NCBI GenBank assembly: GCA_964017235.1
Contig: OZ024928.1
Span: 3,162,001 to 3,226,000, forward strand
Reading direction: 5' to 3'
Source of the DNA: Sabellastarte sp. h YS-2021
Taxonomy: Eukaryota; Annelida; Polychaeta; Sabellida; Sabellidae
Length of the DNA: 64,000 nucleotides
Shown here: piece by piece, positions 60 through 35,824 of the stretch
Layout: every line of letters begins with the position of its first letter
Numbering within the stretch: position 1 is the stretch's first letter
Notes under the pieces: generated by a model
What the model was told of the DNA's origin: nothing
Seen by the model: the letters and a program-made list of their open reading frames with translations, nothing else
Database searches by the model: none
Translations under genes and position numbers: made by a program

Positions 60-65
60 AATGAT
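60..65. repeat. Left target-site duplication AATGAT of the Polinton
   Basis: AATGAT stands directly before the left terminus (AGTAGTA...). The same six bases follow the right terminus at 35819-35824. Six-base duplications are the known integration footprint of Polintons/Mavericks. Bases 1-59 would then be host flank. Confidence 0.88.
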
Positions 66-255
66 AGTAGTAAGTGTTGGGTTAACATTTGGGCCATTAT
101 TGGGGTTAACATTTGGACCAATATTAGAATTTGTCTTTACCTCCACCATATCAAAAATGGCCCAAAAGTTAACCCAACTTTTTAACCAAAAAAAGTTATC
201 CAACCAGTTAAGTTAGTACTTGAGACTCCAGGAATTGTTTTCATTAGACAGTAAA
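66..255 (+). repeat. Left terminal inverted repeat of the Polinton
   Basis: About 190 bp matching the reverse complement of 35629-35818, with landmarks shared in order: AGTAGTA start, TTAACATTTGGGCC, TTAACATTTGGACCA, ATGGCCCAAAAGTTAACCC, CCAGTTAAGTT, GAGACTCCAGGAATTGTTTT, TAGACA(G/A)TAAA. It contains two direct copies of a TTAACATTTGG(G/A)CC motif at about 82 and 105 and an inverted partner (GGCCCAAAAGTTAACCC) at about 160, so the terminus can itself fold. Confidence 0.88.
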
Positions 256-860
256 AAAAGTTTTTAGAGTTGCTAGTATTGTACTGCGGCACCACGGACA
301 TTTATTTAGTTGCTCTGCACACCTCTCACAACAGAGTAGATGTCGACAAGGTAGAAGAACTATTGTAATATTGCCATCCATACAAATCTTACAAGCCGGT
401 GCTGAATCTGATCTTCTGTTCTCCTGAACAACTCGTTCATCTTCAATTTCAAATATTGCATCCAATAAATCCACTGCTTTAATAGTATTGCCTTTCAACT
501 TTTCCAACCCGTCTCTTATTAACTTATCAGAAAAACCTGACGTACAATTTTCTCTGCACTTTTGTGTATTGAACACTGGGTCATATTGGTGTAATCCTGA
601 TTTAAAATTTCGGTGGCCCTCATTTTAGCAAATTTACAAAATGGAAAATGCTTAAGATGTTCTTTTAAAGGAATATCTCCTGTAACCCAGTTTTACATAA
701 TACCACCACAGAAGGCACATTTAACTCTGTCTCCAGGTCCACAATAAAATAACCCGGCTTTAACTAAATCAACTGGTGACACAATTTCATCCTTCAGCCA
801 TTTATCCAGGAAGCTAGCAAAACGAAGACCTTCTGATGTATATTGATCATCTAAAGCTTT
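244..860 (-). pseudogene. BIR-RING inhibitor-of-apoptosis-like gene, broken
   Basis: Read on the minus strand, about 860-630 encodes a BIR domain: RFASFLDKWL, the zinc-binding CAFC pair, then NWVTGDIPLKEHLKHFPFC with the His and final Cys. 576-244 encodes a C-terminal RING of IAP type (ACKICMDG, PCRHLLCCERC, CPWC). The order BIR then RING is that of animal and viral IAPs, which bind caspases and ubiquitinate targets. The copy is dead: an in-frame TAA (693-695) sits between the CAFCGG motif and NW, and the BIR and RING frames differ, with the switch at an A-run near 627. Upstream (870-1140) are two degenerate repeats of the BIR start. It lies inside the element's left arm, so it was either carried by the element or inserted later. 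Family assignment is firm; activity is not expected. Confidence 0.8.
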
Positions 861-1140
861 TGCCATTTTAATTACATGTCAGTCATCATCAAATCCTTGT
901 CACACAGGGAATTATAACTGTTTTCATCCTTTCTTAAAAGAAGCTAGCCAAAATGAAGAAAAGACTCTACTACCTTCTAATGTATATTGATCATCTAAAG
1001 CTTTTGCCTTTTTAATTACATGTCAAAGTCATCATCAAATTCTTGTCACACAGGGAATTGTAACTGTTTTCATCCTTTGGTCACTTAAAAGAAGCTTGCC
1101 AAAATGAAGAAAAGACCCTACTGATGCATACAACTTTGTC
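840..1140 (-). repeat. Tandem duplication of the BIR-domain start (degenerate)
   Basis: About 840-955 and 985-1110 repeat the same text (tgtatattgatcatctaaagc, ttaattacatgtca, cacagggaatt, aactgttttcatcctt, aaaagaagc). On the minus strand each carries a decayed version of the segment leading into the BIR domain. No open frame survives. Confidence 0.6.
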
Positions 1141-1227
1141 ATTTTATGTATTGTCCTAGTTAAATCTTGATATTCACCTCTTTATCAATCAATATTTCCT
1201 TCTACATAAAATAAAATAATTTTTTGT

Positions 1228-4200
1228 TCATTTTAACCAAGTATCCACTTTCGTTTTCAGACTGATCTTGTTGTCATATAAAAAATTCCCAAGAAACAGC
1301 AACTGAATGTGTAAAATAAATGAAAAACACATCCAAGTCACTATTCCCAGGGCTGCACTCATTGCCTCTTCCCTGAAATAGACAAAAAAGAATACCCACA
1401 GCTTAATACACATCTACACCAATCATTTTGATTTTCAAATTTAATATACAATATGATATTATCTGTAAGAATTTACATAATGTAACTGAATATTGAAAAA
1501 TTATATATCCTGTGCTCTTAAATCTTTTTGGATATTTATGTTAATCCATTTCTAGAATTAACTGATTATTTTACAACTGAATACAAAAGGTATTAATGAA
1601 CATCTTACCTTCCTTTCTTTTGAAAATATTCATCCATAAAAACATTGCTTTGTCCCATGACTTTTTCTTGTTACAGAAAAAGGTAAATGAAAAGTTAAAG
1701 TTAGTGTTTTAGATGTTGTTTAATAACCAGGGTCATATTGTGATAGATCCTCAGCATTGCTACTTGTGTTTGTGTGTGTTGGAAGCTTGAACCCCCAGAC
1801 ACAACAGTCTATGTTTGTTTTACGTCGCTTTCAACACTGTACAGGTCATATCATGACAGTAGTTGGAAGGGCAGAGGAAACCAGTACATAGAGTTCACTA
1901 GGGTTCTGTACTGTAAACTACAGAACCAACAGTAAGCAACTATCATCTTTCCCACTTGAGACCATGCTGGGAATCGATCCCCCTCAGAGGTGGGAGGAGA
2001 ACCACCATGGCCCCCCCACACAACAGCCTATGATTAGATGTCAAATTTGCTAATAACTAGGTCACCTGTTGGAAGCTTGAAAGCCCCAGACACAACAGCC
2101 TATGAATAGATGACAAATTTGCTAAGAACTAGGTCACCAAGGATCTCAGGGGGAAAAGACCTTAAATAAAACAAAGTAATAAATTTTGAAAAACTTTATT
2201 TTTTGTTTCTAAATTTACAAAAAAATAATAATTTTGATCAAACAATTTTATAAATTTTTTAAAAAAGGTCTTCTTGTTTTTTTCTTATGTTCTGAAAAAA
2301 ATAAAAAGAACAACCTTTTAAATAAAAGATATAAAATAACTAAATGGCATATTACAAGAAATACAAGAAATGAAAAGTAACAAAGTAACTTTTTAAAAAA
2401 GAAGCCTGTCAATGAACTTACCTCTTTATTTTTTCATCATCTGGATCTGAAATAGATAAAAAAATTATGGATACAAATCCATAATAATATACATAACCAT
2501 TGTGATATATAACATGTTACCATTTATTTTGGAAACCATTTTTTAGGAACATGTCACAATTATTTATTTATAATCAGGAAAAAAATACTTTCACCAATCA
2601 TATGTATATCAGGCCGGGCGCTTCATGTAGGAAAAGTTGGTAGTTACTTGCCAATGCCCCCGGTGGTTTACAGTGCAGTATGCACTGGTTTCCTCCACCT
2701 GTAAACTACCCGTCACAATATGACCCTGGCTGTTGAACACAACATAAAAACCCCAAATAAATAAATAAATGCTCTATATTATATTTGAAGATAACAATCA
2801 AAATTACTTAAAGCCAAATCTACAAAATAAATGACAATAGAAATACCACATAATATGGTAAAATGTAACAATAAAGTTATATTTACAATTGTCTTTTTGG
2901 ACCTCCTGATCTGTAAGTATAAAAATAGAAAAACCACAGTTACACAACTAAATGCTCTATATTACAATGAAAATAACAATTAAAATTACTAAAACCAATC
3001 TTGTAATATTATTGAAAACCACCACACTTTATAATATGGTTAAGCAAAACATTAAAATTATATTTACCATGGTCCTTTTTCACCTGATGATCTGTAAACA
3101 TAAAATAGAAAAAAACAATAGTTATAGAACTAAATTGCTTATAATGAAAAACACCCACACCTCTTGTAACCTAAATTTTAAAAAATACAAAATAAAATTA
3201 CCTCAACCAAAAATTTACTGATAAAATTAATCATAACTATAGAATAATATGGAAACCAAAGGAATAAAGTTATACTTGCCTCTGTCATGCTTATTTGCCT
3301 GATCTGTAAACATGCACAAGAAACAACAATTAGTAGGACTTTTTTCGTCCCAAGAAGAAAATCTTAAATGACAAAGATCATACATTTGAACTCTTTATAT
3401 ACTTATATCAACAAACACCATAGCTTACTGGGATATAAAATGACACCGTTTAACATCAGTAATAAACTCTTCCCTCCAGAGAAAGAGGGCACAAGTCCTC
3501 AAGGAATTTTATTACCTCATTTATTTTTTTCTTACTGGTTTTAATGCACAGTATAAAATTTTATTTACATGTTAAGTTTTAATGTATAGCAAAAACTTTG
3601 GAATATCCTAAGGTATGAAAGAAATATAAAAAAAAGCTTATCTACTTACTCAGGCTCTCACTGTGTATCTGAAAATGAAAAGGTGAAAAGATAATATGTA
3701 TATGTGTTAGAAATCTGCCTGTTAAAATCATAGTTATTTACTTTTGAAGAAATAATGTCTCAAGAAGAAAAATTTCACCAATTAAGAGTTATCAATGTTC
3801 TTGTATAAATATTTACTCAAAGTCTTGTGAATCAGTAAAAACAATTAGTGAATGACATAATAAAGCAATGCATTACATTATCCTCTGAGTAGTGAAAAGT
3901 AGAAAAAACACAAACTGATATACCTAATAGTAAAATAACACATTAAGACTAATAAAGACCATAATTGTTCATGTACATGTAAGTTTTATAAACAAAGCAT
4001 ATTTACAGTAAAAAGGAAGTAATTACTCCTGATTTCACAATTAGACTAGTAATACACTTACATTAACACTGATTCTGGAGCGCTGTAAAAAAAGAAACAA
4101 AAATAAAGGCGATAGAAGAAATTGGTTATCAAAAGCAAAATAAATAATAGACTTACAGATTTCCCAAAAATGATGTAGCAATACACATGTGACTAATCAT

Positions 4201-5946
4201 AATTGTGCACCTTATCTTTCTGACTTTTTGCAGTGTGTGTTAACAGTTTTATAAACTGGTAATACTACAAGGAAAACCCAGAACCTTTTAACACATGTAA
4301 AAAATAGATATTTTTTACATTTTTATAATCAATTAATAATGCTATTTTGTCTTAATTTATAAGTCCTCATCTATGTTACCACTTTGCACAGTCTTAAAAG
4401 TAGCAATACTACAAGAAAATTATGAACTCTCCGATATGTAAAAAAACACTCTAAACATTTTTACTTTTAAATAAAGAACTATTAAATAAGAAAAACTTTC
4501 AGAAATTGCCTAAAACTGATAAAAAAATTAGTACATACCTGAATCATCCTCTGTTTTATTTCTGTAAAATAGAGATTTATAAAAAGTAATAAAAGATACA
4601 AAGTTAGACATTTCTTTCTAATTTTTGAATAAAATTATTTTTTGTAAACTTTAAATACAAACAACAACTTTCATAACAAATTTGAAAAAATAAGTGTAAT
4701 TTCTCACCAATATTCACATCTTTTTTGACAGGCTGAAAAAAAAGAAAATCTATAAATAATAAAAGTTTCACAATGACAAATCAAACAAAAATTTCTTCAG
4801 GTTAAAATGTCTAATTTTCATATTTTAGTAAAACCTCACTTAGGTGGAAATATTTGAGTAGATACAGACCCCTACCAAACCAAATTGAACAAATTTCATT
4901 TGAATGAAAATGATTATTAGTGGTATTGTATTTTGTTCTTTATCAGATTTTAAAATGAAACTATTTCAATTATATCTACACCTCTATATATCTGGATGAC
5001 TTGCAGGTTCATAAAACAAAATATACACACACACACACAAACACTACTACAGCAGTGCACCCAGTAATATTTGTGACCTCAAGGTTAGTTTTGCTATATA
5101 TGACAAAGCTGTATTTACTTTAATTCCTGATTACTTAGTCATTAACATTAGTAATTACCCACCAAAGCATGTGTTTCAAAATTCTGTTTGGGGAAAATGA
5201 TTTACCAAAATGTTTTTAAAGCTTTTTTTGTCTTGTGGGGAGGGTGTAAGAAAGTAAGAAGACTTACAATTTTCATGGGCTCTTCTCTACTTTCTTCATC
5301 TCTACAACATAAAATACACAAAATCCCTTGGACTACGTTTTTGGTCACTACATCTGTTAACCTAGTGCATTATGTTCCCTATTGTGGCAAATATTTTCGA
5401 CTTTTGGAGGGCACTAGATTAGTAATCTCTAACAAAAAACACATATATGATACAATCTATGAACACCAAAATGTAACCAACTGTTTTACCTCTGACATAT
5501 TATTATTAACATACAAGTTATTATCCTAACTAAACCAATTATTATATGTTGTGTCACTACACACAAATATTTTTTTAAAAACCTTTTTAATAACCACAGC
5601 TTATACAAAAACTAATATCATTATAAAATATACTTACATTTTCCTCTTCTTACTACTCCTGAGATCCCTGTGCAGCACAAAATACAAAAAAACATGAATT
5701 AAGAAGTTATTCCAATTTACTTTTTTTAAAATTAAAATACACTAAACTTCCTTATTACACTTACATTTTTCTTTTTCTTTTCCAACTGTGCCGCAAAGTG
5801 CGTGGAATGCATCTTTTAAAGGGAAAGATGACGTAATAATGATGCGTGTATACAGTAATGACCTTTTTTTCAGATTTACCATAAGTATTACAGAAAAGGT
5901 ATTCCTTTTTGGCTCTATCCAAAATTGAACCTACTTGTCCTGTCAC
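1228..5946 (-). CDS. Spliced microexon gene in the left arm (unknown product)
   Basis: On the minus strand a series of very short exons has consensus splice sites (…TTTACAG or TTTCAG before, GTAAGT/GTATGT/GTGAGA after): 5765-5946 (5' limit uncertain), 5638-5667, 5268-5301, 4708-4732, 4539-4561, 4062-4082, 3650-3668, 3280-3303 (GC donor), 3068-3091, 2887-2910, 2422-2446. Lengths are 30, 34, 25, 23, 21, 19, 24, 24, 24 and 25 nt after the first. Although many are not multiples of 3, the phases chain without a stop through all eleven. The encoded segment is strongly charged (Lys, Arg, Glu, Asp). Two further exons, 1609-1666 and 1372-1228, also join in phase and end in a hydrophobic, membrane-like stretch and a stop. 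Between 2422 and 1666 the phases disagree, so an exon (2 mod 3) is missing or undetected; SINEs have inserted there. Exons 3280, 3068 and 2887 and their flanks resemble one another, suggesting growth by local duplication. No family recognised. Confidence 0.6.
1814..2017 (-). mobile_element. tRNA-derived SINE (family A) nested in a family B SINE
   Basis: Reads on the minus strand as tRNA-like head, unique body and a tail ending GACGTAAAAC. It is flanked by ACACAACAGTCTATG (1799-1813) and ACACAACAGCCTATG (2018-2032), a 15-bp duplication with one mismatch. The target is a fragment of the second SINE family, which resumes at 2033 and is itself partly duplicated near 2069-2130. Confidence 0.75.
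2609..2765 (+). mobile_element. SINE family A fragment, 5'-truncated
   Basis: Contains the body and tail only (aaagttggtagttacttgcc, gtttacagtgcagta, ctggtttcctccacctgtaaactacccgtc, ataaaaaccccaaataaataaataaa). The tRNA-like head is missing. It lies in an intron of the microexon gene. Confidence 0.65.
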
Positions 5947-7040: not shown

Positions 7041-7042
7041 AA

Positions 7043-7660
7043 TTTTCATTTAAACTAATATCGCACAAGTGACACAGGATTTCTCAATGTAACATTTTCT
7101 TGAATTTTGCTTTCCTAGAAATGTAAAGTTTGTTTTTTCATTAAAACATACCACAAAATATCTTAATTGTATTCTTCCCAATTAAACATTCCTCACAATT
7201 TAAACCCGCAGCAATATCACCATCCTTTGGCACCCTATTGAACAATAAGCCTTCAATTCTTTCTCTTCAGATATTTATTGAAAATCTGTGCAATAGTTCT
7301 GGAAAGTTCTATAAAAACGGGAATGTGTCCCACTGAACATTAGCTGAATTTTCATTTTAAATTAATTCCACACAAGTGACACAGGATTTCTCAATGTAAC
7401 ATTTTCTTGAATTTTGCTTTCCTAGAAATGTAAAGTTTGTTTTTTTTCATTAAAACATACCACAAAATATCTTAATTGTATTCTTCCCACTTAAACATTC
7501 CCCACAATTCAAACCTGCAGCACTATCACCATCCTTTGGCACCCTATTGAACAATAACCCTTCAATTCTTTCTCTTCAGATATTTATTGAAAATCTGTGC
7601 AATAGTTCTGGAAATTTCTTTAAAAAACGGGAATGTGTCCCACTGAACATTAGTTGTAAT
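7043..7660 (+). repeat. Tandem duplication, about 307-bp period
   Basis: 7043-7349 and 7350-7660 are near-identical (cacaagtgacacaggatttctcaatg, cttcagatatttattgaaaatctgtgcaatagttctgg, gggaatgtgtcccactgaacatta). Related motifs (cccactgaacatt, cttgtgttctagaaa) recur at 7680-7790 and again at 13440-15700 beyond the LINE, so this spacer family was continuous before the LINE landed. Confidence 0.75.
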
Positions 7661-8160
7661 AACTACTGTCAGATTTATTGTATAGTTTTGTCATTATTAC
7701 AACGAATGTAATAACCTCTCTGTGCTTGTGTTTCTGGAAAGTTCTGTCTGTATGTTGACCCACTGAACATTCTACAGATAATGTAAAACCTAATATTATT
7801 TTTATGGTCTTCTATGATAATTTATTGTTTATGAGTCAGTTTTTTTTTTTTTTGTTTTTGTTTTTTTTTTGTTTTTTGTTTTTTTTTTTTTTTTACCTTC
7901 AATATACTTTTTATTCACCCTTTTTTCACATCAGTGCAAAAGAATCTGGGAGGGCGAGAGTGGCAAACCCTCCATCAGATCTATTTACAAGTGCAGTGTA
8001 TTGCAAAGACAACAAGGTCAACATTTTTGCTATTTTATATACTTTTAAATAGAAAAATAACAACTGATTTTTTTTTGCAATTGCATAACTCCACAAGGTC
8101 TTCTGTGTGACAGAAAAATGAAATAAAGCAAGAAAAAAAACATAATACCTAGACGAAATA

Positions 8161-11100
8161 TCAAACTAAAAGTAAATGACCAATAAGTGGTTGCCACTTT
8201 TTCCAAATTTTATTAAAATAAGTTTCTTTATGATATAACTGACTTAACAACTTTTGTTCCGAGTATACTTGATGTAATCGATGGATAAATCCATTTAGAT
8301 TAAGATTTTGACATTTATTTGAAGACTCAAATATATATTTTTTAGCAACAAGAAGAATTGTATTGATGGGTTGCTGATTGAACTCCGCTAAAGTATAGCC
8401 TAATATAATATTAAAAGGTGTAAGTGACAATGTTGTTGTGACCTTACTTTTGATATATGTTAGAACTAGGTTCCAAAACTGTTTTACCTTCGGACAAAGG
8501 ACAAACATATGAATTATATTTTCCATTTCATTTCTGCATCTAAAGCATCTAGCGTCTTCACTGATATTTACTTTAGATAAATATGACCTTGTTCCCAGTA
8601 TTCTATACAAAATTCTTAATTGGAACCATTTATATGTATTGTCTCTAATTGACCCATGACAAATTTGGAATATACGTTTCCATATTTGATTATTGATTGT
8701 AACATTTAATTCATTTTCCCATTTGCCTCTTGCAACATGGTCATTTTGATGCTTAACAAGTAAACTTTTATAAAAACCGCTGGTGTCGTTATTCTTGAGT
8801 ATCCAATAATTCAGTGGCATAATAGGGCCAATTATTTTATTATAATCTCCATGCTTATGTTTGTTAATAAATTTATGGACAACAGTTGATAAACGAAGGT
8901 AATCTAAAAAATTCAACGAATCCAGATTGTAACGATCTTTCAATTTCTGGCTTGTGAGAACCTTTCCCTCATTGTCTATTATATCAGAAATCATTATTAT
9001 TCCTTTAGAATACAATTTCGGGTAAAACATAGCTTTAACTGATAGATCCTCATTGTACCAAAGATGACTTGATGCAATTTGTAAATTGGAATTTATTTGT
9101 TTTTCCTTTGTTAATTTTTTCCATGCAGCAAGGACATCTAACCAAAATATATTACTTGTTTTCATTTGTATAGCATTGCTGTAGTCAGGCCCAAAGTCTG
9201 TAAGTCGTCTTAAGTCCCAAAGGATTGTTAGTTGGAATAATTTTGTCCATGGGGAGGATTTACTGATCAGTCTATTTATCCATCTGGCCTTTATAGCCAC
9301 CAGAAAGTACTGCAAGTGTGTCATTTTCAGTCCTCCCATTGAATGATCTAAAATTGTTACATCCCTATTTATTTTATCTGGTTTATTTGACCACACAAAT
9401 TTAAAAAATATATCATTTAATTCCTTCAATAAAGAATTAGTTGGTGTAGGTAAGCTTGAAAACAAATGGTTTAACTTGGATAAAAGAATTGTTTTGACCA
9501 CCACTATTTTTCCTAATGGAGTTAAGTGTCTTTTACTCCAAATGGATATTTCTCTTTTTATTTGATTTATTTTCTCTGTTAGATTAAGATCAAGCATTTC
9601 AGACAGATCTACTGAAAATTTTAGTCCTAGCAGGTCAAATTTTGTAGTATTCCACTCAAACTTTTTTGGAATTAGTTGATCTTGAGAATATCTTTTTTTA
9701 CCAATCCAAGTTACCTTGGTTTTATCTGTATTAATTTTCAACCCTGATATGCTACCAAAAAGTTCAAGAGTATTTAAAGCTGCTACCATGGACTCACGTG
9801 AGCCATTTAATATGAGTGTGGTATCATCTGCGAATTGAGATATTTTGAATTCACAGTCTTTTATAGTGATCCCTTTTATTTCTACATTTTTGATTATAAG
9901 AAGGTTTAGTATCTGAGCTGCTATAATAAATAAATAAGGGGAAATGGGATCCCCTTGTCGACAACCACGGCCAATGCTAATAAATTCAGACATGAAACCA
10001 CTTTGTAATACTATTGCTTTAATCTCAGTATTGAATAATTTTATCCATTTCAAAAATTCATTTGAAAAGCCCAAAAAAGATAAAGTCTTGTATATAAAAT
10101 TCCAAGATATCGAATCGAAAGCTTTTTGAAAATCAATGAGGATGAGGAGCCCTGGTATTTGTGCCTTTTGAGTATAATGCATTATATCGTATATTAGTCG
10201 AGTTGATTCACCTATAAATCTGCCAGGCACAAAACCTGTCTGCTCATTATTGATTAAAAAGTTTAAAAATGGTTTTATTCGATTGGCTATTGCTCCTGAA
10301 GCTAATTTATAAACAACACATAGCATTGATAGAGGACGCCAATTGCCAATACAATCCCTTGGTTTTCCAGGCTTTGGCAGGCAAGTGATAATACACTGTC
10401 TCAATGACAAAGGCATTGTGCCACTTCTGAAACTGTAGTTTAAAGCTCGTAGAACCCAAAATTTAATTCTATTCCAAAAAACCTTTAAGAATTCAGCTGG
10501 TAAGCCATCTATGCCGGGACACTTATTGTGTTTCATATTTTTTAAAACTGTGTTCAACTCCTCAAGTTGAAGCTCTCCTTCAAGAGATTTAGCTTGTGAT
10601 TCATTAAGTTTGTTAATTTCAGTGTCACAGAACAAATGTTTAAGGTTTAAGTCTTCAAGTTGATTGTCATAAGATTTGAATAATTTCTTATAATACATTT
10701 GGAATTCAGTCAAAATGTCTTTTTGTTTGGTAATATAAGTGCCATCATACCTCTTGATTCGTTTTAAAGTTTTATTTATATAGTTTCTCTTTTCAAGCGA
10801 ACAGAAGAATTTGGTAGGTTTTTCCCCATCTAGTAACCACTGCGCTCTAGATCTGACATAGTGTCCTTTCATTTTCTTTTCCCTAATCTCCAACAATTCA
10901 TATTGTTTTTGGTTTATTTTGTTGTGACTATCTGCCATGTCTTCTTCATTTTCAAGTTTTTCTAGATCGGATAACAACTCAGATTCACGTGAGACCTCCA
11001 GTTTATTCTTTGTACTTGAATACCGTACAGTTTCCCCTCTAATACGAAGGAAGAGCATTTCAAGGAACAGATTTTCAGATATTGTTATTTGTAGCTCATT

Positions 11101-12032
11101 TTCTGGGATTGTATTTATAGATTGCATATTATACACTGGAACAGCATATTTTATCACCTCATCCTTTATACATTGGTTTATTAATTCTAAGTAGGCCTGA
11201 TCTCGTAATAAATTTGTATTAAATTTCCACACTCCTTTTCCCCTTGTAAACTTGCTTTGTAAAATATTTACCTCTAACATAGAATGATCTGTTCTGTAGC
11301 CAGGTTTAATATTTACACTTTCGACTAAATCTATTACACTCTCTGATACTATGAAGTAGTCAAGTCTGGCTTGTTTTAGGGGTTTGTATCTGCGCCAGGT
11401 GTAACGCCTTGTGTCTGGGTGAAAATGCCTGTACAGATCAAATAAACTATGATCTTTTATAATATCTAAGGTGACACAACGTGAATTTGGATTGTTGATA
11501 TTTGAGTAATTGTAACTATCTAGTTCAGGGTTCAAGGTCATATTAAAGTCGCCACACCAAAGTATATAATCTTGCTCATTATCATTTAAATTCTGATTTA
11601 AAGAATTATAGAAACTTACTTCATCTTTGTTTGGACCATATATATTAATCAATTTAAGGTTAAGGTCATTAACCTGTATATTATTAATCAACCATATATA
11701 TTAATCAATTTAAGGTTAAGGTCATTAACCTGTATATCAAGTACTATTTTATTTCCCTCCTTGTCCTTGATCATGTTTTTTGTAGTATAATTTAATGTGT
11801 TACTTAGTAAAATTGCAACCCCCCTTGAATTTGTACTTTGTCCATGTAAAATAATTTCCCCATTCCACAGTTGTTTACAATCCCCAATGTCAGTTTCGAT
11901 TAAGTGTGTGTCCTGAAGACATATTATTTGTGCATTTTGGTCTTTTAGATAGTTAATGATGTCATATCGTTTTACTTTATTTCGTAACCCTCTGCAATTC
12001 AAACTTATGATTTTCATGACATCTTTTGGCAT
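8161..12032 (-). pseudogene. LINE ORF2: AP-type endonuclease plus reverse transcriptase, frame-broken
   Basis: The product would nick target DNA and prime cDNA synthesis from it. The N-terminal endonuclease part (12032-11688) shows KIISLNCRGLRNK and QIICLQDTHL. After the break it continues with LWCGDFN and YRTDHSMLEV. The reverse transcriptase follows with RPLSMLCVVYK, LILIDFQKAFDS, GCRQGDPISPYLF and the catalytic QFADDTT, then a C-terminal region with a CX2C-H-C knuckle (CFRCRNE...HMFVLCP). About 1,290 residues in total, near full length for L1/Tx1-like ORF2. The frame is broken at 11635-11737, where a 47-bp segment is directly repeated with an offset of 56 bp, so the two ORFs share the residues QVNDLNLKLINIYG. 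No ORF1 was found upstream. Confidence 0.9.
11635..11737. repeat. 47-bp direct duplication inside the LINE endonuclease
   Basis: 11635-11681 and 11691-11737 are identical (accatatatattaatc...cctgtatat), separated by 9 bp. The 56-bp offset is not a multiple of three and breaks ORF2. A duplication of this kind is a typical replication-slippage or repair scar. Confidence 0.9.
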
Positions 12033-13411
12033 CTCTGCAAGAATTTTTTACAAGAAAATTTACAATCCATATCAATCACTATCACACTAAAGCCAAATGG
12101 AAGCATGCAACTGCCATAACAACACTTGTATTGTATTTTTTGACATTTCCAATTTTTATTATGCATTTCAAAGAACAAGGCACTGATGCCATAGATGGTT
12201 CTAATAACCAAATTTGCTGTACTGAAGGAATTTTTAAAAAAAGAAAGAACTTGACTATATAACAACAAAAGACAAACAATATAAACATATATACATTTGT
12301 ACATTATGGTGTCTGATAGCCCAAGACACATTGGTTTTGGTGAGGTAAGACGGAAGGAATGGAAAAAAATTTTTAAATTTAGAAAATTATAAAAAAAATT
12401 AAAAAAAAAATAAAAAAATTCAGGCATCTGGTAACTTAAACCTGTCAAAAGGACATGTCATATTTTCTTTGATATTTTGTACTTAAGTACTTGTGTATTT
12501 AACAATGTGTTGAGTTTGTTAAATTTCTTGGTCATAATTAACACTATTTCCATACTTTACAGCCTGCGGTAACTTCCCATTATTGATATTTTATGCACAT
12601 CTAATAAGTCGAAACCAGTGATCTTTATACAGAAATGTCAGTTACGTAGCAGATTAATTGATCATCAATCTACTCTTGAAGTTCGTACTATTCAAGTTCT
12701 AATTATTGTTGGAGTAAGTGAAACAGCAATGTACCTTTTGCTGTAAAATAGGTACAAAACACTGCAAAATTTTATATCAAAGCATTATGTTGTAATTCTA
12801 TGTCTAGACATAAAAGTAGCATATTTTTGTAGGAATACAATGTATACATTTTTTTCAGATGCAATCAGTGTATTACACCTAACACTTATTATATTGGACC
12901 ATGTAGAGGCTATTTTCGAATACTGACATGACTAAAATTGCTTTTACAGCTTTTATCAAACCATTTGCCAGTTCTCTGATTTTGAGACAAGGGTCCTAAT
13001 TTTCACGAGTGTCATATTGGGACTTGCCTCCAGCAAGTTAAAATCATGCAGGATGGATCTTTCTCTAACATTGTTAAAAGTTATATCCCTTAAAAAACCT
13101 GGATTGTTATAACAGCCCATATTCTGAATGTATATATTTAGAAGTACTTTACTACACAATGACAGCACAATATTAAATTATTAGGATTTAGAATCTTACA
13201 ACATGTAGACAACAATGTCAAGAAAATTTCAAATGACAGATCTTATTTGGGGTTTTACGTCGCTTTCAACACTGTACAGGTCATATCACGACGGGTAGTT
13301 GGAAGGGCAGAGGAAATGACAGAACTTAGTTTTTCAATTCCAATGTAGCTATTATGACCCATAAAGACGCAGCTTATCATAAACATTTTTTGATCATGAG
13401 TCAGTTTTTTT

Positions 13412-15754: not shown

Positions 15755-15763
15755 TATATAAAG
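15755..15763 (+). promoter_or_regulatory. TATA box candidate for the plus-strand gene block
   Basis: TATATAAAG stands 122 bp upstream of the ATG at 15885, in the right orientation and at a plausible distance for a leader beginning near 15785. It is the only strong TATA match noticed before the compact gene block. Prediction by motif only. Confidence 0.4.
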
Positions 15764-18503: not shown

Positions 18504-18589
18504 ATAAAAAACATTTTTTAGAGACACACACACACACACACAAAAAGAAACAGTGTGTGACAGTTAGAAAGCCACTGTTTGATGTGACA

Positions 18590-23330: not shown

Positions 23331-23593
23331 ATGCTCGTAAAAGGGCCTCGGTCACTAAATTCAAAGGGAAACTGTACTGCCACTTTTCTGATCAGTTCTC
23401 GAGAAAAAATGTGACTTTTAACTATCCTGAGTTGAAAAAGCTGAAGAAAATTTTACCTTCGTTGTTAGATATTTTAAAAAAATATGATGGAAAGAAACAG
23501 AAAAAAAAGTGTGAGACACCCGATGAAATGGAAGACGGTTGTGACTCACCTTACAATACCACACCTGAAAGCAGCGATATTGAGTCAGAATAA
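23300..23593 (+). CDS. PC4/Sub1-like ssDNA-binding protein (tentative)
   Basis: 97 residues, starting inside the last 31 bases of polB in another frame. Residues 16-60 fit the PC4 core by eye: ASVTKFKGKLYCHF, then VTFNYPELKKLKKILPSLL, corresponding to the beta-strands and C-terminal helix that bind single-stranded DNA. A Lys-rich then acidic, Ser-rich tail follows. PC4-like proteins act in transcription and in binding unwound DNA; next to the polymerase such a role would make sense. Its stop overlaps the kinase start as TAATG (23591-23595), which suggests coupled expression. The match is short and should be tested by profile search. Confidence 0.55.
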   Translation: MGFKAKAFKINARKRASVTKFKGKLYCHFSDQFSRKNVTFNYPELKKLKKILPSLLDILKKYDGKKQKKKCETPDEMEDGCDSPYNTTPESSDIESE

Positions 23594-24164
23594 TGAAGTT
23601 ACTTAGCATTGATGGGATCATGGGTGCTGGAAAAAGTTATCTCTTTAATTTGTTAAAAGAAAATTTTGCACACAATAAAAAATTGGGTTTGTAGAGGAAC
23701 CAGTGGAGAAATTTAAAAAATATTTACGGTACAATCCATTGAGGGAATATTACAGTGACCCAGTGAAAAATGCTGCACTTTGTCAACACTACTTCTTGAA
23801 TGTCTTAGGAAAGTTATACTCAGAAAGCCTACACAAAACCAGTGACATAGATTACCTCATATCCGAAAGTAACTTGTACAGCACAGTTATTTTCATAAAC
23901 GCTCAGTATGAAAGAGGATACCTGTCAGACTTTCAACATGATTATCTTACAGATCGGGTACACGAAAAAATTGGGGAAACACTCAACAAAGACTGTGGGT
24001 TAGGTTGCAACAAGTTGGTGTACGTAGTCACAGATGTTGAGAGATGTTTGGAACGGATATTACAACGAAAAGAAGAAAGCACCATGATAGAATTACGGGA
24101 CTACCTGCATTGTCTCCAAAAGGAGTACGATGAGTATTATTGCATTTTTGTAGAACAAAAGTGA
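23593..24164 (+). pseudogene. Deoxynucleoside kinase copy 1, frameshifted
   Basis: The start ATG at 23593 leads to LSIDGIMGAGKSYLF, a P-loop of the deoxynucleoside/thymidine kinase family, but the frame stops near 23693. The homologous continuation lies in the next frame from about 23680 (GFVEEPVEKFKKYL) to 24164. The switch falls at a run of six A's (about 23676-23681), so a one- or two-base indel is likely. Later motifs fit the family: an INAQYERGYLSDFQHDY helix, LVYVVTDVERCLERI and the lid region with RILQRKEES. The enzyme would phosphorylate deoxynucleosides to feed DNA synthesis, matching the dUTPase in purpose. The C-terminus beyond 24164 is also degraded (24165-24245). Confidence 0.8.
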
Positions 24165-24245: not shown

Positions 24246-24669
24246 ATGAAACTGGCAACCATAGAGGGACTTATGGGTGCTGGAAAAACTTATCTCTTTG
24301 AAAAAATTAAATACGCAATACGAAATGGGTTACCTGAATGACTTTCAATACGATTACTTGTCAGATATCATTCAACAAAATATAACAGACACTCTACCCC
24401 AATTCTGCAAGTTAGGTTGCAATAGGCTAGTTTACATCGATACAGATGTTGCAACATGTTTGAAAAGAATCACGGACAGAAAAGGACAGAGCAACATGGA
24501 AAATTTTGAAGATTACCTGAACTGTTTACAAAAAGCGTACGAAGACTACTGCAACATTTTTTCAGAAGAAAATGGAAGGCATTACCTAGTAAGAGTAAAA
24601 AACTCTGATGCAGAATTAGGTGTAAAAACATTGCTAGTTAACAATAATATGTCCGTGTGTCAAGACTGA
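24246..24669 (+). pseudogene. Deoxynucleoside kinase copy 2, internal deletion
   Basis: A second copy starts at 24246 with a P-loop (EGLMGAGKTYLFEK) and, after only a few codons, jumps to the equivalent of the mid-protein helix (LNTQYEMGYLNDFQYDY), in another frame. About 75 residues between P-loop and helix are deleted relative to copy 1. The rest is intact (LVYIDTDVATCLKRI, TDRKGQS, NFEDYLNCLQKAYEDY) and its C-terminus is longer than in copy 1. The two genes are a tandem duplication, both disabled, and diverged enough that the duplication is not recent. Confidence 0.82.
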
Positions 24670-24671
24670 AC

Positions 24672-25112
24672 ATGCCTTACAAACATAGCCCAACAATGGA
24701 GATTTTTTCAAATGATGAATCAGATGTTTCGTGTGAACAGATACAGTGTTGTTCATACTGTTCCAAAGACAAGGTTTTGGTGAAAGGGAAAACCTACTGT
24801 CACGACTGTAAAAGTAATTGCTTCAGGGAATGTAAATGCTGCAAGCGACCATTCCACGATGAAAAATACTTCACTTACTCGGAGACTAGATGTAACTCTT
24901 GTCACAAGAAATACTTAAACGAGAAGGTTAAACGAGAGCAACGAAAGAGGAAACCCGTGGAAGATCCTGTGAACAACAAAAAAACATCTGGAGTGGAGAA
25001 GGTGGAAGAAAAAAGCCCGTGTGAAAAAAGAAAAGCATTAAAGATAATAGGTTTCCTCCCGGTGTTCTGTTTAGGACAGAAGTTAGAAAACCATGAAATT
25101 CAACATAACTAA
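24672..25112 (+). CDS. Cys-rich zinc-binding protein upstream of integrase
   Basis: 146 residues from the ATG at 24672 (a later start at METs near 24699 is possible). Residues about 25-80 hold paired cysteines: CCSYC, YCHDCKSNC, CKCCKRPFH and RCNSC, a pattern of two small treble-clef or ribbon zinc sites. The rest is Lys/Glu-rich. No named family was recognised. Cys-rich small proteins next to the integrase are frequent in Polintons, and a DNA- or capsid-related role is guesswork. Its last bases overlap a possible 47-aa frame that runs into the integrase start. Confidence 0.6.
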   Translation: MPYKHSPTMEIFSNDESDVSCEQIQCCSYCSKDKVLVKGKTYCHDCKSNCFRECKCCKRPFHDEKYFTYSETRCNSCHKKYLNEKVKREQRKRKPVEDPVNNKKTSGVEKVEEKSPCEKRKALKIIGFLPVFCLGQKLENHEIQHN

Positions 25113-26250: not shown

Positions 26251-26913
26251 ATGAGTTTTGAAGTTTTTGATGCGCGTCTAAGGACACCATTTTCTGCAGT
26301 TGTAGCCGGCCCAAGCATGTGCGGGAAAACTCAGTTTGTGCTCAAGCTATTGGAGTCTTGGAATACAATAGTGGATACTCCATTCGACTATATTGTTTGG
26401 TCATATGGCCAGAAAACGGAAGCATTAGAAAAAATTTAAAAATTATACGGTGACAAAATTACTCTTGTGGAAGGGATACCGGATGACTTGACTGGTTTCA
26501 CAAAACAGAAACAACATGGTGTATTTATCTTCGATGATTCTCAATCCGACATCTGTGATTCTCAAGAAATAGCGGATTTGTTCACCAAAAAATGTCACCA
26601 CGAGAATATCAGCACCATTGTGATATTTCAAAATCTATTTTGTGAGGGAAAACACAGAAAAACCATCTATAGGAATGCCTCATACCTTATCTTATTTAAC
26701 AATCCCCTAGATTACACATTGGCTTATTCCCTAGCTAGAAAAATTTATCCACACAAGTCGGGCATATTTTTAGACATATTTAAAAATGCAACGAGGAGAC
26801 CTTATACTTATTTATTTATAGATGGAAAAGTCAGCACACCAGAGGATGCTCGTTTTAGAACAGATTTGTTTGGTAAAAACTTCCAGAGAGTTTTTGTGCC
26901 CAACAAAGCATAA
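26251..26913 (+). pseudogene. Packaging ATPase (FtsK/HerA-A32 type), one nonsense codon
   Basis: This ATPase pumps DNA into preformed capsids. The Walker A motif is VVAGPSMCGKTQF (residues 20-27 core), and Walker B is GVFIFDDSQSD. A further conserved stretch, STIVIFQNLF, fits the sensor region. The gene is one frame of about 220 codons, the normal size for Polintons, but codon 63 is TAA (26437-26439, within LEKI-stop-KLYGDK). Nothing else is broken; frame and spacing continue. The lesion is therefore a single substitution or an unusual allele. It stands between integrase and the small virion-type genes, the usual Polinton neighbourhood. Confidence 0.9.
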
Positions 26914-26982
26914 AAAATTATCCGTGTGACAGATTCAAACAACAGTTAATAATAGTATGGAAGAAAGAGACAAAAAGATAAT

Positions 26983-27315
26983 ATGGGATCTGCACTAAAG
27001 AGAAGAGATTATCTCACATTACTAGCAAATTCAAAAGATGTGAAAAGAAGGAAGGCACTTTTAGATGTAGCCACAAAACAAGAAATTGATGCTATATCAG
27101 AGTGCTTGTTAAACATAGTAAATGGTCGTGTGAGAATTTCACCCTCTAAAATTGGAAAGTTAAAGAAAATAAAAAGACACCTCAAAGATCTCACAAACAA
27201 AAGGTGTTCATTTAAGAAAAGAAAACAAATTCTGAAACAGGAAGGGGGATTCTTGACGAGTATATTACCGGTGGCATTGTCTGTGCTAGGTTCACTATTT
27301 GGAGGTGGGAAATGA
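26983..27315 (+). CDS. Conserved small Polinton protein with hydrophobic C-terminus
   Basis: 110 residues. The N-terminal two thirds are helical and strongly basic (KRRDYLTLL, RRKALLDVA, KKIKRHLKDL, KKRKQILKQ). The end is a Gly-flanked hydrophobic stretch, GGFLTSILPVALSVLGSLF. Proteins of this plan lie beside the capsid genes in many invertebrate Polintons. The basic part could contact DNA and the hydrophobic tail a membrane, but the role is not established. Its TGA overlaps the next ATG as ATGA (27312-27315). Confidence 0.7.
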   Translation: MGSALKRRDYLTLLANSKDVKRRKALLDVATKQEIDAISECLLNIVNGRVRISPSKIGKLKKIKRHLKDLTNKRCSFKKRKQILKQEGGFLTSILPVALSVLGSLFGGGK

Positions 27316-27863
27316 ATTATAAAGAGGCTGTAATTGTTCCACTGGAAGTATTTAACAAGTGTAACTTTAACCCACAGGAGAAAGAACTTCCTCCCCAAAA
27401 AACTGGTGACATACTTGATGACAAAACTCTTCCTCCAGATGTGAAAATTAAGCTTTATAATCAGAAAAAGAAATTGACCAAGAGACCCCTTCCAGAACCA
27501 CAACTTGTACAGATTAAAAAAGACGTAGAAGTAGAAGCTCCATCTGAAGATATCATATTAAACCAATTTCCCCTGAGAACAAAACCTGTGGTTAATTTAA
27601 TTTTAAAATATATGAAAGACTCGCGAGGTATCTTATCATGGACGGATAACCTGGAAATTGTAATCGAGGGTGACACAATACAAGACAGTAATCTTATTCA
27701 GTTACTTCGGTTTGTAACAAACAGTTTAACCATTACATCTGCTAAAGATATACCCGTGGGAGCAGAGAATTTTGTGGATACGTTGGTGGATATTGGTGTT
27801 CCTAAGGCATACATACAACTACCGCGAAGAAGTACGAAAAAGAGTGAGTGGGTGAAGTTTTAA
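27312..27863 (+). CDS. Conserved Polinton protein of the capsid gene cluster
   Basis: 183 residues, intact. It begins with a short conserved MNYKEAVIVPLEVF element, then a DDKTLPPDVKIKLYNQ motif, a Pro/Lys-rich linker and a C-terminal half containing RGILSWTDNLEIVIEGD and DSNLIQLLRFV. The family is recognised as a frequent partner of the double-jelly-roll capsid gene in animal Polintons; its function is unknown. The ATGA overlap with the preceding gene points to joint expression. Confidence 0.7.
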   Translation: MNYKEAVIVPLEVFNKCNFNPQEKELPPQKTGDILDDKTLPPDVKIKLYNQKKKLTKRPLPEPQLVQIKKDVEVEAPSEDIILNQFPLRTKPVVNLILKYMKDSRGILSWTDNLEIVIEGDTIQDSNLIQLLRFVTNSLTITSAKDIPVGAENFVDTLVDIGVPKAYIQLPRRSTKKSEWVKF

Positions 27864-27937
27864 ATGGACTGTGTGATGTTTTGAAAAGTGACAGTTTCTT
27901 AATGTAAAGGACTAAGAATTTTCCTCATGACATCAAG

Positions 27938-28315
27938 ATGAGAATCATCAAATATTATCCAAACACAAAAGGAATAGAACACCATTACTGTCAATCCGGG
28001 GGAAATATTCCAGTTTTTGTTGGATCTCCAATTCAACGAGGTAGTGGTCTAGGTCAAATATTATCCGGTTTATTCAAACGAGCACTGCCAATTCTAAAGG
28101 AAAAAGTATTACCAGCAGTTGTCCGTTCCGGAAAAGAGGTGTTATCAGACGTCATAATAAACAAGAAAGGAGTAAAACAAGCCCTATTAGACACTGGGAA
28201 GAATCGCATCTCAGAATTTGTGGGAAACACTCCTGTGACGGGTAGATCTAAGAAGCGTAAAAAGAGCTCTCCGCAAACCAGTGGGAAAAGAAGAAAGTTA
28301 AATCTTGTACTATAA
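27938..28315 (+). CDS. pX/pVI-like minor virion protein
   Basis: 125 residues. The start has a motif common to this family, GGNIPVFVGSPIQRGSGLG, then an amphipathic helix region (QILSGLFKRALPILKEKVLP) and a very basic C-terminus (KKRKKSS, KRRKLN). In adenoviruses and Polintons, short Gly- and Lys-rich proteins of this type lie inside the capsid, condense DNA or disturb membranes, and are often cleaved by the viral protease. A GG-x context near the N-terminus would fit such processing. Assignment by composition, motif and position between ATPase and capsid genes. Confidence 0.7.
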   Translation: MRIIKYYPNTKGIEHHYCQSGGNIPVFVGSPIQRGSGLGQILSGLFKRALPILKEKVLPAVVRSGKEVLSDVIINKKGVKQALLDTGKNRISEFVGNTPVTGRSKKRKKSSPQTSGKRRKLNLVL

Positions 28316-29676: not shown

Positions 29677-30207
29677 ATGGACACTCAGCAAATTACTCAA
29701 GTGTTAAGTACGAACAATATTACAAAAAATGCATACATCGGCACATTACCATGTGATAAACTACCAACAAAAATAGATCGAATTCCGTTTGCTGTTGTAG
29801 TCAACACAGATGTACACACCAAACCAGGAACGCATTGGACTGCTATTTATTTACCATCAGTAAAGGAACCAATAGAATATTTTGATAGTTATGGGGGAGA
29901 ACCAACTAATAAATACATTGTAAAATTCCTCGAAATGGTAGACCAGTATAGCTACAACAGCAGAAGAGTACAACACCTTTTCTCTACCGCATGTGGTCAA
30001 CATTGTATCTACTTCATCTCAAATAGGTGTAAAGGTATGTCATACAATAACATCATGAATACGTACAACCATGAGGGTTACAGTAAAAATGACAAAATGG
30101 TCAAAGAGTTTTGTAAAAGGAAATTTGGTTTAGACATAAGTAAAAAAGTTTCAGAAGATTTCTTAACCCGACAAATTTCACGTCAGTTAATTGATAGTTT
30201 GCAGTAA
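29677..30207 (+). CDS. Adenain-like cysteine protease
   Basis: 176 residues, intact. It matures capsid proteins in Polintons and adenoviruses. The catalytic set is visible in order: H53 in GTHWTAIY, D70 in EYFDSYGG, Q99 and C106 in VQHLFSTACGQHC, with the Gln-to-Cys spacing of seven seen in adenain. A basic helix follows. It comes 5 bases after the major capsid gene, the conserved Polinton arrangement. The retained active site contrasts with the broken polymerase and ATPase. Confidence 0.92.
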   Translation: MDTQQITQVLSTNNITKNAYIGTLPCDKLPTKIDRIPFAVVVNTDVHTKPGTHWTAIYLPSVKEPIEYFDSYGGEPTNKYIVKFLEMVDQYSYNSRRVQHLFSTACGQHCIYFISNRCKGMSYNNIMNTYNHEGYSKNDKMVKEFCKRKFGLDISKKVSEDFLTRQISRQLIDSLQ

Positions 30208-30278: not shown

Positions 30279-30719
30279 ATGTTTTCAACGGTACTCTTGT
30301 GGTCTTGCTTTGTAGTATCCGCATTTAGCAGTAAGTGCGGTAATCCACCAGTTTGTTGGTGTACTAACGCTGTTGGAATTATCTTGTGTAAAAATATTGA
30401 TACGCTACCTTTTTTTAATGAGGATGATAAAAATACAGCAATATTCTTAGACTTAATTAATACAGGCATAACAGAATTGCCCAATTTTAGGTCATGGCCT
30501 ATCCTGGAAATGATTGTTATCAGAAACAGCACGCATCTGTGTAATATTACAATCGATAAACCTGAACACATTTGGCTCGATTCGGACTGTCCGGGTCACC
30601 AAAATCTTGAAAATATTGTGCAGGGAGAACATCATTACAAGTTAAGAAGGGTGGATTGGCCATACCTCTTATTACTTATTCCTCTTTTTTCATTGGGCTA
30701 TTTATTGGTTACGAAGTAA
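30279..30719 (+). CDS. Single-pass membrane protein with LRR-like ectodomain
   Basis: 146 residues. A signal peptide (about 1-18, hydrophobic, ending SAFSS) leads to a Cys-capped segment like an LRR N-terminal cap (KCGNPPVCWCTN...LCKN), one or two leucine-rich repeats (TAIFLDLINTGITELPNF), several Cys and N-glycosylation sites (NST, NIT), and a C-terminal membrane segment (PYLLLLIPLFSLGYLLV) with almost no tail. A 30-codon basic frame at 30722-30814 just after the stop might be a lost tail in another frame. It is the last gene of the block. It might act at a membrane or on the cell surface; nothing in the sequence shows which. Possibly captured from a host LRR receptor. Confidence 0.68.
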   Translation: MFSTVLLWSCFVVSAFSSKCGNPPVCWCTNAVGIILCKNIDTLPFFNEDDKNTAIFLDLINTGITELPNFRSWPILEMIVIRNSTHLCNITIDKPEHIWLDSDCPGHQNLENIVQGEHHYKLRRVDWPYLLLLIPLFSLGYLLVTK

Positions 30720-30808
30720 GGATGAAAGGAAACACAATTCAGTTTTATCGGAAAAAGAAGGGCAGTAAAACTTCAAATAATGTTAGCTTAACAAACATAG
30801 ATGACAGG

Positions 30809-33633: not shown

Positions 33634-33779
33634 CTAAAAATAAACTAAATAGATGTAAATAATAAGAGGAGAAATTGATTTTTTTATCTCAAAATTGCCA
33701 AGTGATATTGATTCAATTAACTCTTCAAACTAACTGGCTACATATTTTACAAAGAATTAAACCTACCATCGTTTCCAAA

Positions 33780-35330
33780 TACCTTTGCAAATAAAATATA
33801 TTTTATTTAATATCCATCTACATTGCTAGTTCATGATACCCTTCCAAAGAGTAAGCAAATATGAAAATATTTTAAACTACAAGCAGTCCACGATCTTGTT
33901 TGCAAACTAAATGGCCACATATTTTACAAAGAACGCACCCAACATATCTGTCGTCGTTTTCCAACCAAATATATATTATTTTATTTAATATCCATCTTGT
34001 GTACATTGCTAGTTCACGATACCCTTCCAAAGAGTAAACAAATATGAAAATATTATAAACTACAAGCAGTCCACGATCTTTCTACAAACTAACTGGCTAC
34101 ATATTTTACAAAGATTTAAACCCAGAACGTAGTTTCCAAATAAAATATATTTTATTTAATATCCATCTACATATTTGCTACGTAGTTCACGATGCTGCCC
34201 TACCAAGAGTAAACAAAAGCAGGTCCACGATCTTGTTTGCAAACTAAATGGCCACATATTTTACAAAAAGAACGTACCCAACATGTATGTCGTCGTTTTC
34301 CAAATAAATATATATTATTTTATTTAATATCCATCTACATATTTGCTACGTAGTTCACGATGCTGCCCTACCAAGAGTAAACAATGAAATATTTTAAACT
34401 GAAGACACGAGTTCCGGGATTCGTGTGCGCATGCTCGAGGCGGGGGGATTTTCTCAAAAGTATCATAACAAAACGAGTTTCTTATCGAAATATATATTTT
34501 GCAAACCAAGGCAGATCTATTTACAAACTAACTGGCCACATATTTTACAACGAGAACGTACCCAACATGTCTGTCGTCGTTTTCTAACCAAATATATATA
34601 TTTTTATTTAATATCCATCTACATATTGCTGCGTAGTTTACGATGCTGCCCTACCAAGAGTAAACAATGAAATATTTTGCAAACCAAAGCAAGTCCACGA
34701 TCTCTTACAAACTAACTGGCCACATATTTCACCACAAATTAAACAAAGAACGCACCCAACATGTCTGTCGTCGTTTTCCAAATATATATTATTTTATTTA
34801 ATAGCCATCTACATATTTGCTACGTAGTTCACGATGCTGCCCTACCAAGAGTAAACAATGAAATATTTTAAACTGAAGACACGAGTTCCGGGATTCGTGT
34901 GCGCATGCTCGAGGCGAGGGGGATTTTCTCAAAAGTATCATAACAAAACGAGTTTCCTATCGAAATATATATTTTGCAAACCAAGGCAGATCTATTTACA
35001 AACTAACTGGCTACATATTTTACAAAAAGAACGCACCCAACATGTCTGTCGTCGTTTTCCAACCAAATATATATTATTTTATTTAATATCCATCTACATA
35101 TTTGCTGCATAGTTCACGATGCTGCCCTACCAAGAGTAAACAATGAAATATTTTGCAAACCAAAGCAAGTCCACGATCTCTTACAAACTAACTGGCCACA
35201 TATTTCACCACAAATTAAACAAAGAACGCACCCAACATGTCTGTCGTCGTTTTCCAACCAAATACCTTTGCAAATATATAATATTTTATTTAATATCCAT
35301 CATATTGCTGCATAGTTCACAATAAAATAA
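33780..35330. repeat. Subterminal tandem-repeat array next to the right TIR
   Basis: At least six related blocks carry the same phrases: ttatttaatatccatcta, cacgatgctgccctaccaag (or accctyccaaagagt), agtaaacaa, actaactggc(c/t)acatatttt, aacatgtctgtcgtcgtttt. A higher-order unit of about 474 bp is visible at 34384 and 34858, each with a GC-richer insert (acacgagttccgggattcg, tgcgcatgctcgaggcg). The repeated frames are by-products. Position just inside the terminus could mean a replication or packaging role, or plain expansion. Confidence 0.8.
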
Positions 35331-35476
35331 AAATACAGACTGGTTCCTGAACAGGCTTTTTAAAAAATGGTCTGGTAACCTTGATTTTTTCACAGCTAGT
35401 ACTCAAAGAGTTAAAATGTTTTTCTTGCAGTCTTTAACCAAGAAATAAATATTCTCTATATTTTTAAAAAAAATTT

Positions 35477-35588
35477 TATTGTCTAGTAAAAAACAATTCC
35501 TGGAGTCTCAATGCTAACTTAAATGGTTGCTGATAAATTTTTAGTTAAAGGTTGGGTTAACTTTTGGGCCATTTTCGATGTGTTGCAG
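35477..35588 (-). repeat. Extra partial copy of the TIR inner half
   Basis: Repeats 35631-35743 almost exactly (tattgtctagtaaaaaacaa, ttcctggagtctcaatg, ggttgggttaacttttggg). The left end has a single copy. The right TIR is therefore extended by a tandem duplication of about 154 bp. Confidence 0.85.
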
Positions 35589-35628
35589 TCATTATCCAAA
35601 AAATAAATATTCCCTATATTCAAAAAAA

Positions 35629-35818
35629 TTTATTGTCTAGTAAAAAACAATTCCTGGAGTCTCAATGCCAACTTAACTGGTTTCTGATAAATTTTTTGGT
35701 TAAAGGTTGGGTTAACTTTTGGGCCATTTTCGATGTGGTGCAGGAAAAGGCCAGTTCTAATAATGGTCCAAATGTTAACCCTAATATTGGCCCAAATGTT
35801 AAGCCAACATATACTACT
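35629..35818 (-). repeat. Right terminal inverted repeat of the Polinton
   Basis: Reverse complement matches 66-255 over about 190 bp with scattered differences; both start AGTAGTA. The several per cent difference between the ends suggests the copy is not very recent or that the repeats have not been homogenised. Confidence 0.88.
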
Positions 35819-35824
35819 AATGAT
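35819..35824. repeat. Right target-site duplication AATGAT
   Basis: Exact repeat of 60-65, directly after ...TACTACT. Host sequence resumes at 35825. Confidence 0.88.

Follow-up and report, generated by a model that had tools for sequence, protein, structure and literature searches.

Adintoviridae and the animal Polintons (Mavericks) are the described systems closest to the element analysed here, which occupies positions 66–35818 of a 64,000-nucleotide stretch from the annelid Sabellastarte sp. h YS-2021 (assembly GCA_964017235.1, contig OZ024928.1, positions 3,162,001 to 3,226,000, forward strand; the whole stretch is called the window below, and coordinates refer to it). Those elements and the present one share a type B polymerase (PolB), an rve integrase, and a double-jelly-roll capsid protein, as well as terminal inverted repeats (TIRs), a 6-bp duplication, and (AGT)2//(ACT)2 ends; a putative packaging ATPase and a putative adenain-like protease of the present element would be further common points. 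According to a report on vertebrate Mavericks, intact elements measure 12.7–24.6 kb (mean, 16.9 kb) and are intronless, and '(AGT)2//(ACT)2' is their most frequent end motif, thought to serve the jumping-back step in protein-primed replication (PMC8097293). The Sabellastarte element differs from the Mavericks described there in its length of ~30 kb, about twice the usual size for Polintons, and in a predicted spliced gene of ~12 exons; to the content of Adintoviridae and animal Polintons it adds an inhibitor-of-apoptosis (IAP) gene, a NADAR gene, and a cluster of heat-shock elements (HSEs). The usual 15–20-kb size and intronless genes, from which the present element departs in its length and in its predicted spliced gene, are customary and non-defining traits of Polintons.

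Each addition has a partial counterpart elsewhere. Baculovirus IAP genes are likewise BIR–RING genes carried by a DNA virus; the present gene differs from them in belonging to a Polinton integrated in an animal genome, in its single BIR, and in its position beside a terminal repeat. Schistosome micro-exon genes also have many very short exons and a short, fast-changing protein, whereas the gene predicted here lies on a virus-like element, would have a start codon formed by splicing, and would encode a highly charged protein with no signal peptide recognizable by eye. Heat-activated transposons such as plant ONSEN contain HSEs within a mobile element; ours, in contrast, is a self-synthesising DNA virus-like element whose heat-shock sites would be candidate switches. 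In the hard clam, 51 of 159 IAPs are intronless, scattered, and attributed to retroposition, with DNA transposons in their surroundings, and the available portion of that text names neither Polinton nor Maverick (PMC7831173). The Sabellastarte IAPs resemble those so described in being intronless and dispersed in DNA-transposon-rich surroundings, but the dispersed copies examined here sit inside Polintons. Among the titles and abstract openings of open-licence PMC papers in the capped listings consulted, we found no report of a Polinton with an IAP, HSEs, or a micro-exon gene.

The window most likely holds a stress-responsive, apoptosis-blocking endogenous virus, whose splicing, induction, and function are deduced from its DNA. 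We consider it highly probable that a ~30-kb adintovirus-like Polinton lineage with stress-responsive, apoptosis-blocking cargo integrated here recently and that the resulting copy is defective. A preliminary description of this DNA had noted non-standard extra cargo, which is borne out and now resolved into the IAP gene, the predicted micro-exon gene, NADAR, and the HSEs; the identity of this cargo is the main new result.

Termini, size, and copies of the element

The preliminary description had delimited a full-length insertion by its termini, its inverted repeats of ~190 bp, and AATGAT on each side, and all of these hold to the base (Table 1): the element begins with AGTAGTA, ends with TACTACT, and spans 35,753 bp, with the two TIRs 86% identical over 193 columns. 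Its 535 left-end bases have a full-length match of 96–99% identity at no fewer than 15 other places in the genome (best 40 of 176 candidates scored). Seven such copies were fetched, and the left flanks were examined in six, the seventh (L007) being left out; in all six, the element starts at the same base within differing flanking DNA. When the expected right end was read, four of the six showed the right terminus, with the same end bases, together with an exact 6-bp duplication of their own (CCCCTC, 29,784 bp; AACATT, 30,951 bp; CATGAG, 30,483 bp; TGTATT, 30,486 bp; the last three lengths are arithmetic from coordinates), and in two no right terminus of the element family was present at the expected position. 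Alignment of other copies, proposed earlier as a check on the termini, thus upheld the left end throughout and both ends in four copies. The element family is mobile.

The window copy is longer than the others because a 5.57-kb long interspersed nuclear element (LINE) has been inserted into it. The LINE is flanked by a 16-bp duplication (7831–7846 and 13396–13411), and BLAST alignments of all six other copies skip from window position 7846 to 13385. Without the LINE, the window copy measures 30,188 bp, in line with the other full copies, and the earlier characterization as unusually large remains valid because even this length exceeds the vertebrate range given above. The window copy is defective: the ATPase (one in-frame stop), the IAP, and both deoxynucleoside kinase genes are broken, and the polymerase, integrase, capsid protein, protease, dUTPase, and NADAR genes are open. 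Divergence between the TIRs was set aside as a means of dating, because the right end of another copy resembles the left TIR of the window to a similar degree (87.6%). A 154-bp tandem duplication is also found in the right end of the element.

A mis-assembly that joined two halves of the element, the objection raised in the preliminary description, has no direct support apart from the two copies whose right end is not at the expected place; an assembly join is very unlikely, its probability being practically negligible, because four other full-length copies have the same ends with their own duplications and the spacing between capsid and IAP genes (see below) is consistent.

IAP gene and its linkage to the Polinton

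The IAP gene lies at the left end of the element and reads toward the terminus. In other copies it is an unbroken, single-exon open reading frame (ORF) of 208 residues; that of copy L009 matches BIR at E 9.8e-19 and RING at 2.1e-13, and BIR and a C-terminal RING were found also in the diverged copy L023. A genome search, in which 150 of 1,257 candidates were scored, gave 76 loci, on 13 contigs, at which the alignment covers at least 181 of the 208 residues; 57 of these matches are free of stops, and the last-ranked match listed is 42% identical. The dN/dS ratio is 0.27–0.69 in seven of eight pairs of copies, dS being 0 in the eighth.

Linkage to the Polinton was counted on the 62 top rows among the 98 of the capsid search (85–100% identity; 94 of 1,779 candidates scored), once another 18 rows, which were fragments, had been dropped. 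An IAP in the expected orientation lies within 60 kb in 52 of the 62 rows, and in 38 of those 52 the distance is 22.4–25.6 kb. Among hand-picked C-terminal IAP fragments, from which the C-terminal halves of broken IAPs were excluded before counting, 17 of 26 have an IAP in inverted orientation no more than 60 kb away, and the distance is 28.3–31.0 kb in 11 of these 17 pairs; the inverted repeat of other subfamilies may accordingly extend into the IAP gene. Two counts weigh against a strict association: ten of the 62 capsid rows lack an IAP, and for 40 of 93 IAP rows no capsid match belonging to the lineage is listed at a distance of up to 60 kb, from which it follows that IAP fragments or unlisted partners are common.

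These figures bear on the alternative that an ordinary Polinton was lengthened by later host insertions and junk, with the IAP, NADAR, and spliced region as captured host debris devoid of a role. The LINE and the broken genes of the window copy would suit such a history, as would the fast turnover of the micro-exon region between subfamilies and the broken NADAR genes described below; it is nevertheless quite improbable, given that the ~30-kb size recurs in the four other verified full copies and in the 11 inverted IAP pairs, that the IAP is mostly stop-free, evolves at dN/dS below 1, and accompanies most capsid genes, and that the micro-exon frame is open in three subfamilies.

Two further families were met in these searches. 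A second Polinton lineage in the genome is represented by 18 capsid rows of 34–36% identity; among the matches listed, none of the 18 is accompanied by a copy of this element's IAP. A second dispersed family consists of an intronless BIR ORF beside a PC4-like ORF (under the Pfam cut-off) at loci L031 and L032, which are 99% identical across 3.6 kb and have no BLAST DNA similarity to the window, and at the diverged locus L033. It looks more numerous than the Polinton IAP family (1,221 candidates in the BIR search, 150 scored), and it may be this mobile BIR family, rather than the Polinton, that the BIR-only IAP type of the clam matches.

Predicted micro-exon gene

On the minus strand, to the right of the IAP gene, splice-site signals and an open frame predict a gene in which ten internal exons of 19–34 nt lie between the first and last exons (Table 1), so that the majority of the predicted coding sequence falls in exons shorter than 36 nt. 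An AATAAA near 2195 and upstream CRE-like (5827–5837) and TATA-like (5813–5823) motifs accompany it. The minus strand has 14 donors with a near micro-exon acceptor against ~5 expected, and the plus strand none; 200 donor–acceptor shuffles reached a maximum of 12. The predicted junction of exons 1 and 2 would create an ATG, from which the frame is open to the end in three diverged subfamilies, giving 85 residues in the window, 78 in L023, and 91 in L018, with 8/12, 9/6, and 7/12 stops, respectively, in the two other frames. In six close copies the frame is likewise open, and all splice sites except one donor of L010 are retained. The longest open chain beats all 60 shuffles in seven of nine copies tested. 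Among seven close copies, exons 2 and 3 change in length by multiples of three only; in the introns, 19 of 155 indels, counted redundantly over pairs of copies, have such a length.

Several observations weigh against this prediction. The micro-exons were picked partly by hand, and a second donor–acceptor shuffle run (100) reached 15. The first chain in L018 was closed, becoming open only with an alternative acceptor of the third exon, and one exon of this copy has the weak donor GTTAAT; the deviating L010 donor is CT. The chain test was failed by L016 and was marginal in L021, and copies differ by 4 bases in the length of their last coding exon. The micro-exons also diverge more than their flanks (124/167 versus 634/764 identical positions; seven exons, window 3280–5667 versus L023). 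For the same pair of copies, the apparent dS of the micro-exons is high too (1.95, ~48 codons).

A spliced RNA without coding function, or splice sites lined up by chance, would accord with the manual part of the exon choice, with automatic chains that differ from the hand-chosen ones, and with shuffles that in some cases yield 7–9 exons. We give little credence to this possibility, since a single open frame with a predicted spliced start codon is present in each of the three subfamilies and the indels in exons 2 and 3 preserve the frame; a protein-coding micro-exon gene is the better account. In the right arm, a further candidate for a micro-exon gene was rejected, its splice-pair counts being within or at the edge of those of shuffles.

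Putative control region and NADAR gene

All five perfect three-unit HSEs of the 64-kb window are confined to 4,447 bases around the LINE, between the leftward unit of the IAP and micro-exon genes and the rightward unit that starts at NADAR; simulations gave 0.08 expected for segments 6600–7846 and 13385–15885 together. Four of the five are kept in all six close copies (stretch examined). The diverged copies L020, L022, and L023 have 4, 5, and 4 HSEs, all of them likewise in this region (binomial p values of 0.03, 0.01, and 0.02), partly at other positions and in the other orientation (GAATATTCTAGAA). Against a regulatory role, it must be considered that HSEs are short, that two of the five lie within a tandem repeat, that motif and region were chosen after inspection of the sequence, and that, among ten diverged copies, L017 and L018 have one HSE each and five have none, the fetched piece of each of these containing at most a small part of the region.

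A chance site, tandemly repeated in an AT-rich spacer without regulatory function, is an unlikely but far from negligible alternative: the sites at 7297 and 7606 are part of a 309-bp repeat and the 14.8–15.5-kb region is likewise repeated, whereas the sites of L020, L022, and L023 have different spacers (TG, TA, CG, AT) and one of them is reversed. The HSE cluster is read here as a probable stress-responsive switch.

The gene that opens the rightward unit is identified as NADAR by its domain match; as a point against its retention, it is open in four of 11 copies examined, window included, and broken in seven. Judging by its family, the encoded protein may strip ADP-ribose off DNA or proteins.

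Replication, integration, and capsid genes

The core genes support the adintovirus-like Polinton gene set stated in the preliminary description. The profile search that it had advised for each core protein was conclusive for the integrase; matches of the protease, ATPase, and capsid protein were weak, and PolB and the presumed penton had none.

PolB has 1,666 relatives, among them P0141 (Table 1); those with a named source, among the matches listed, come from Mytilus, Gigantopelta, Pecten, and Haliotis. Matches of PolB to tubulin in PDB were dismissed as chance. The capsid protein was assigned through its family, of which seven of 32 members match DJR-like_dom, at 3.5e-5 in the best case, the window's own protein reaching 0.061; it has 149 relatives, the named ones being from Lytechinus (sea urchin, F54H12.2-like) and Littorina (periwinkle), and it gave no PDB match by sequence. 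The capsid relative P0002 and the polymerase relative P0141, both on contigs of 11,698 bp, probably belong to one contig. The protein that we take to be an FtsK/HerA-type packaging ATPase has a Walker A motif, recognized by eye, and a weak Pox_A32 match (E 0.18). Of the adintovirus traits, an OTU-like part at the N-terminus of PolB is visible by eye only, and Pfam detects neither OTU nor an integrase chromodomain. Two points count against the preferred reading: the window PolB has no Pfam polymerase match, nor has its 63% relative P0138, and two scans of IMG/VR with few peptide patterns revealed no free-virus relatives and no confirmed relative of the capsid protein.

Table 1. Coordinates of the features of the element in the window
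Feature	Position	Strand	Evidence or remark
Left 6-bp target-site duplication, AATGAT	60..65	.	sequence at insertion edge
Left TIR, (AGT)2 end	66..255	+	pairs with 35629–35818
IAP gene (BIR, then RING)	247..866	-	broken in window copy: stop in BIR, frame change
Predicted micro-exon gene	2190..5830	-	splice-site signals and open frame
Predicted exons 1–6	5779-5765 (exon 1 end), 5667-5638, 5301-5268, 4732-4708, 4561-4539, 4082-4062	-	
Predicted exons 7–12	3668-3650, 3303-3280 (GC donor), 3091-3068, 2910-2887, 2446-2422, 2291-	-	
Perfect HSEs, TTCnnGAAnnTTC, at 7297, 7606, and 7732	7297..7744	+	motif scan
Later LINE insertion, reverse-transcriptase ORF 8161–11700	7847..13411	-	5,565 bp, absent from 6/6 other copies
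HSEs at 13446 and 15673, several one-mismatch matches, repeated upstream DNA	13446..15685	+	
NADAR-domain gene, 161 residues, open	13975..14460	+	E 1.4e-48
488-residue protein	15885..17351	+	no convincing family
Two proteins of ~150 residues	17354..18503	+	similar by eye only, no family
dUTPase	18440..19030	+	profile match, E 1.7e-18
Presumed penton (minor capsid)	19035..19829	+	general resemblance; no Pfam match
PolB	20178..23330	+	relative P0141, 51% identical, matches DNA_pol_B_2 (PF03175) at 1.8e-22
Deoxynucleoside kinase	23593..24164	+	frame broken near 23690
Second deoxynucleoside kinase, shortened	24247..24669	+	broken
Cysteine-rich protein without assigned family	24657..25112	+	ORF
rve integrase, 316 residues	25233..26183	+	profile match, E 4.1e-10
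Presumed FtsK/HerA-type packaging ATPase	26251..26913	+	motif; in-frame stop 26437–26439
Three small proteins inside capsid-gene block, presumably virion-type	26956..28315	+	general resemblance
Major capsid protein of double-jelly-roll type, open, 449 residues	28322..29671	+	via family relatives
Adenain-like protease	29677..30207	+	Peptidase_C5, E 0.0022, under Pfam cut-off
146-residue protein, apparent signal peptide and single membrane span	30279..30719	+	by eye
Direct repeats, right arm	33722..35290	.	repeat search
Right TIR, (ACT)2 end	35629..35818	-	pairs with 66–255
Right 6-bp target-site duplication, AATGAT	35819..35824	.	sequence at insertion edge

Proposed cycle and implications

The lineage would be a protein-primed linear DNA virus, inserted by its own integrase. 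Its left region of ~10 kb (LINE excluded) would comprise two parts on either side of the control region: a leftward unit, made up of the BIR–RING IAP and the micro-exon gene, and the beginning of a rightward unit, in which NADAR comes first and dUTPase, PolB, and the remainder follow. Active HSF, under heat, proteotoxic, or infection stress, may switch on the early genes of the element, upon which the IAP would delay apoptosis, dUTPase and deoxynucleoside kinase would provide nucleotides, NADAR would trim ADP-ribose marks, and the small charged micro-exon protein might act in the nucleus. PolB would then copy the linear DNA from the (AGT)2 ends, and the element would replicate and be packaged, possibly into virions, its DNA being reinserted by the integrase. 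With heat-shock-type switches, an IAP, and a micro-exon gene, the element family may therefore sense host stress and keep the host cell alive.

In a broader and tentative proposal, toward which we lean somewhat less than away from it, a lineage of integrating viruses couples stress sensing to a block of apoptosis and to a micro-exon gene and has spread scores of intronless IAPs, so that part of the 'retroposition' or stress-responsive expansion of bivalve IAPs would be viral cargo. The element would make it possible to test whether animal Polintons are viruses reactivated by stress, whether viral cargo accounts for dispersed IAP expansions, and how an element with intronless relatives gained, and keeps, a gene of ~12 tiny exons.

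Sequences flanking the element

Rfam and tRNA searches gave no match. Just beyond the element, positions 36158–37060 hold arrays of 21- and 43-bp repeats and large inverted repeats. ORFs with NACHT (E 5.7e-18) and weak LRR matches on the minus strand at 38120–41574 probably represent a host gene of the NLR type a few kb from the insertion, and a DDE_Tnp_4 transposase ORF is located in the host flank at 52146–53006 on the same strand.

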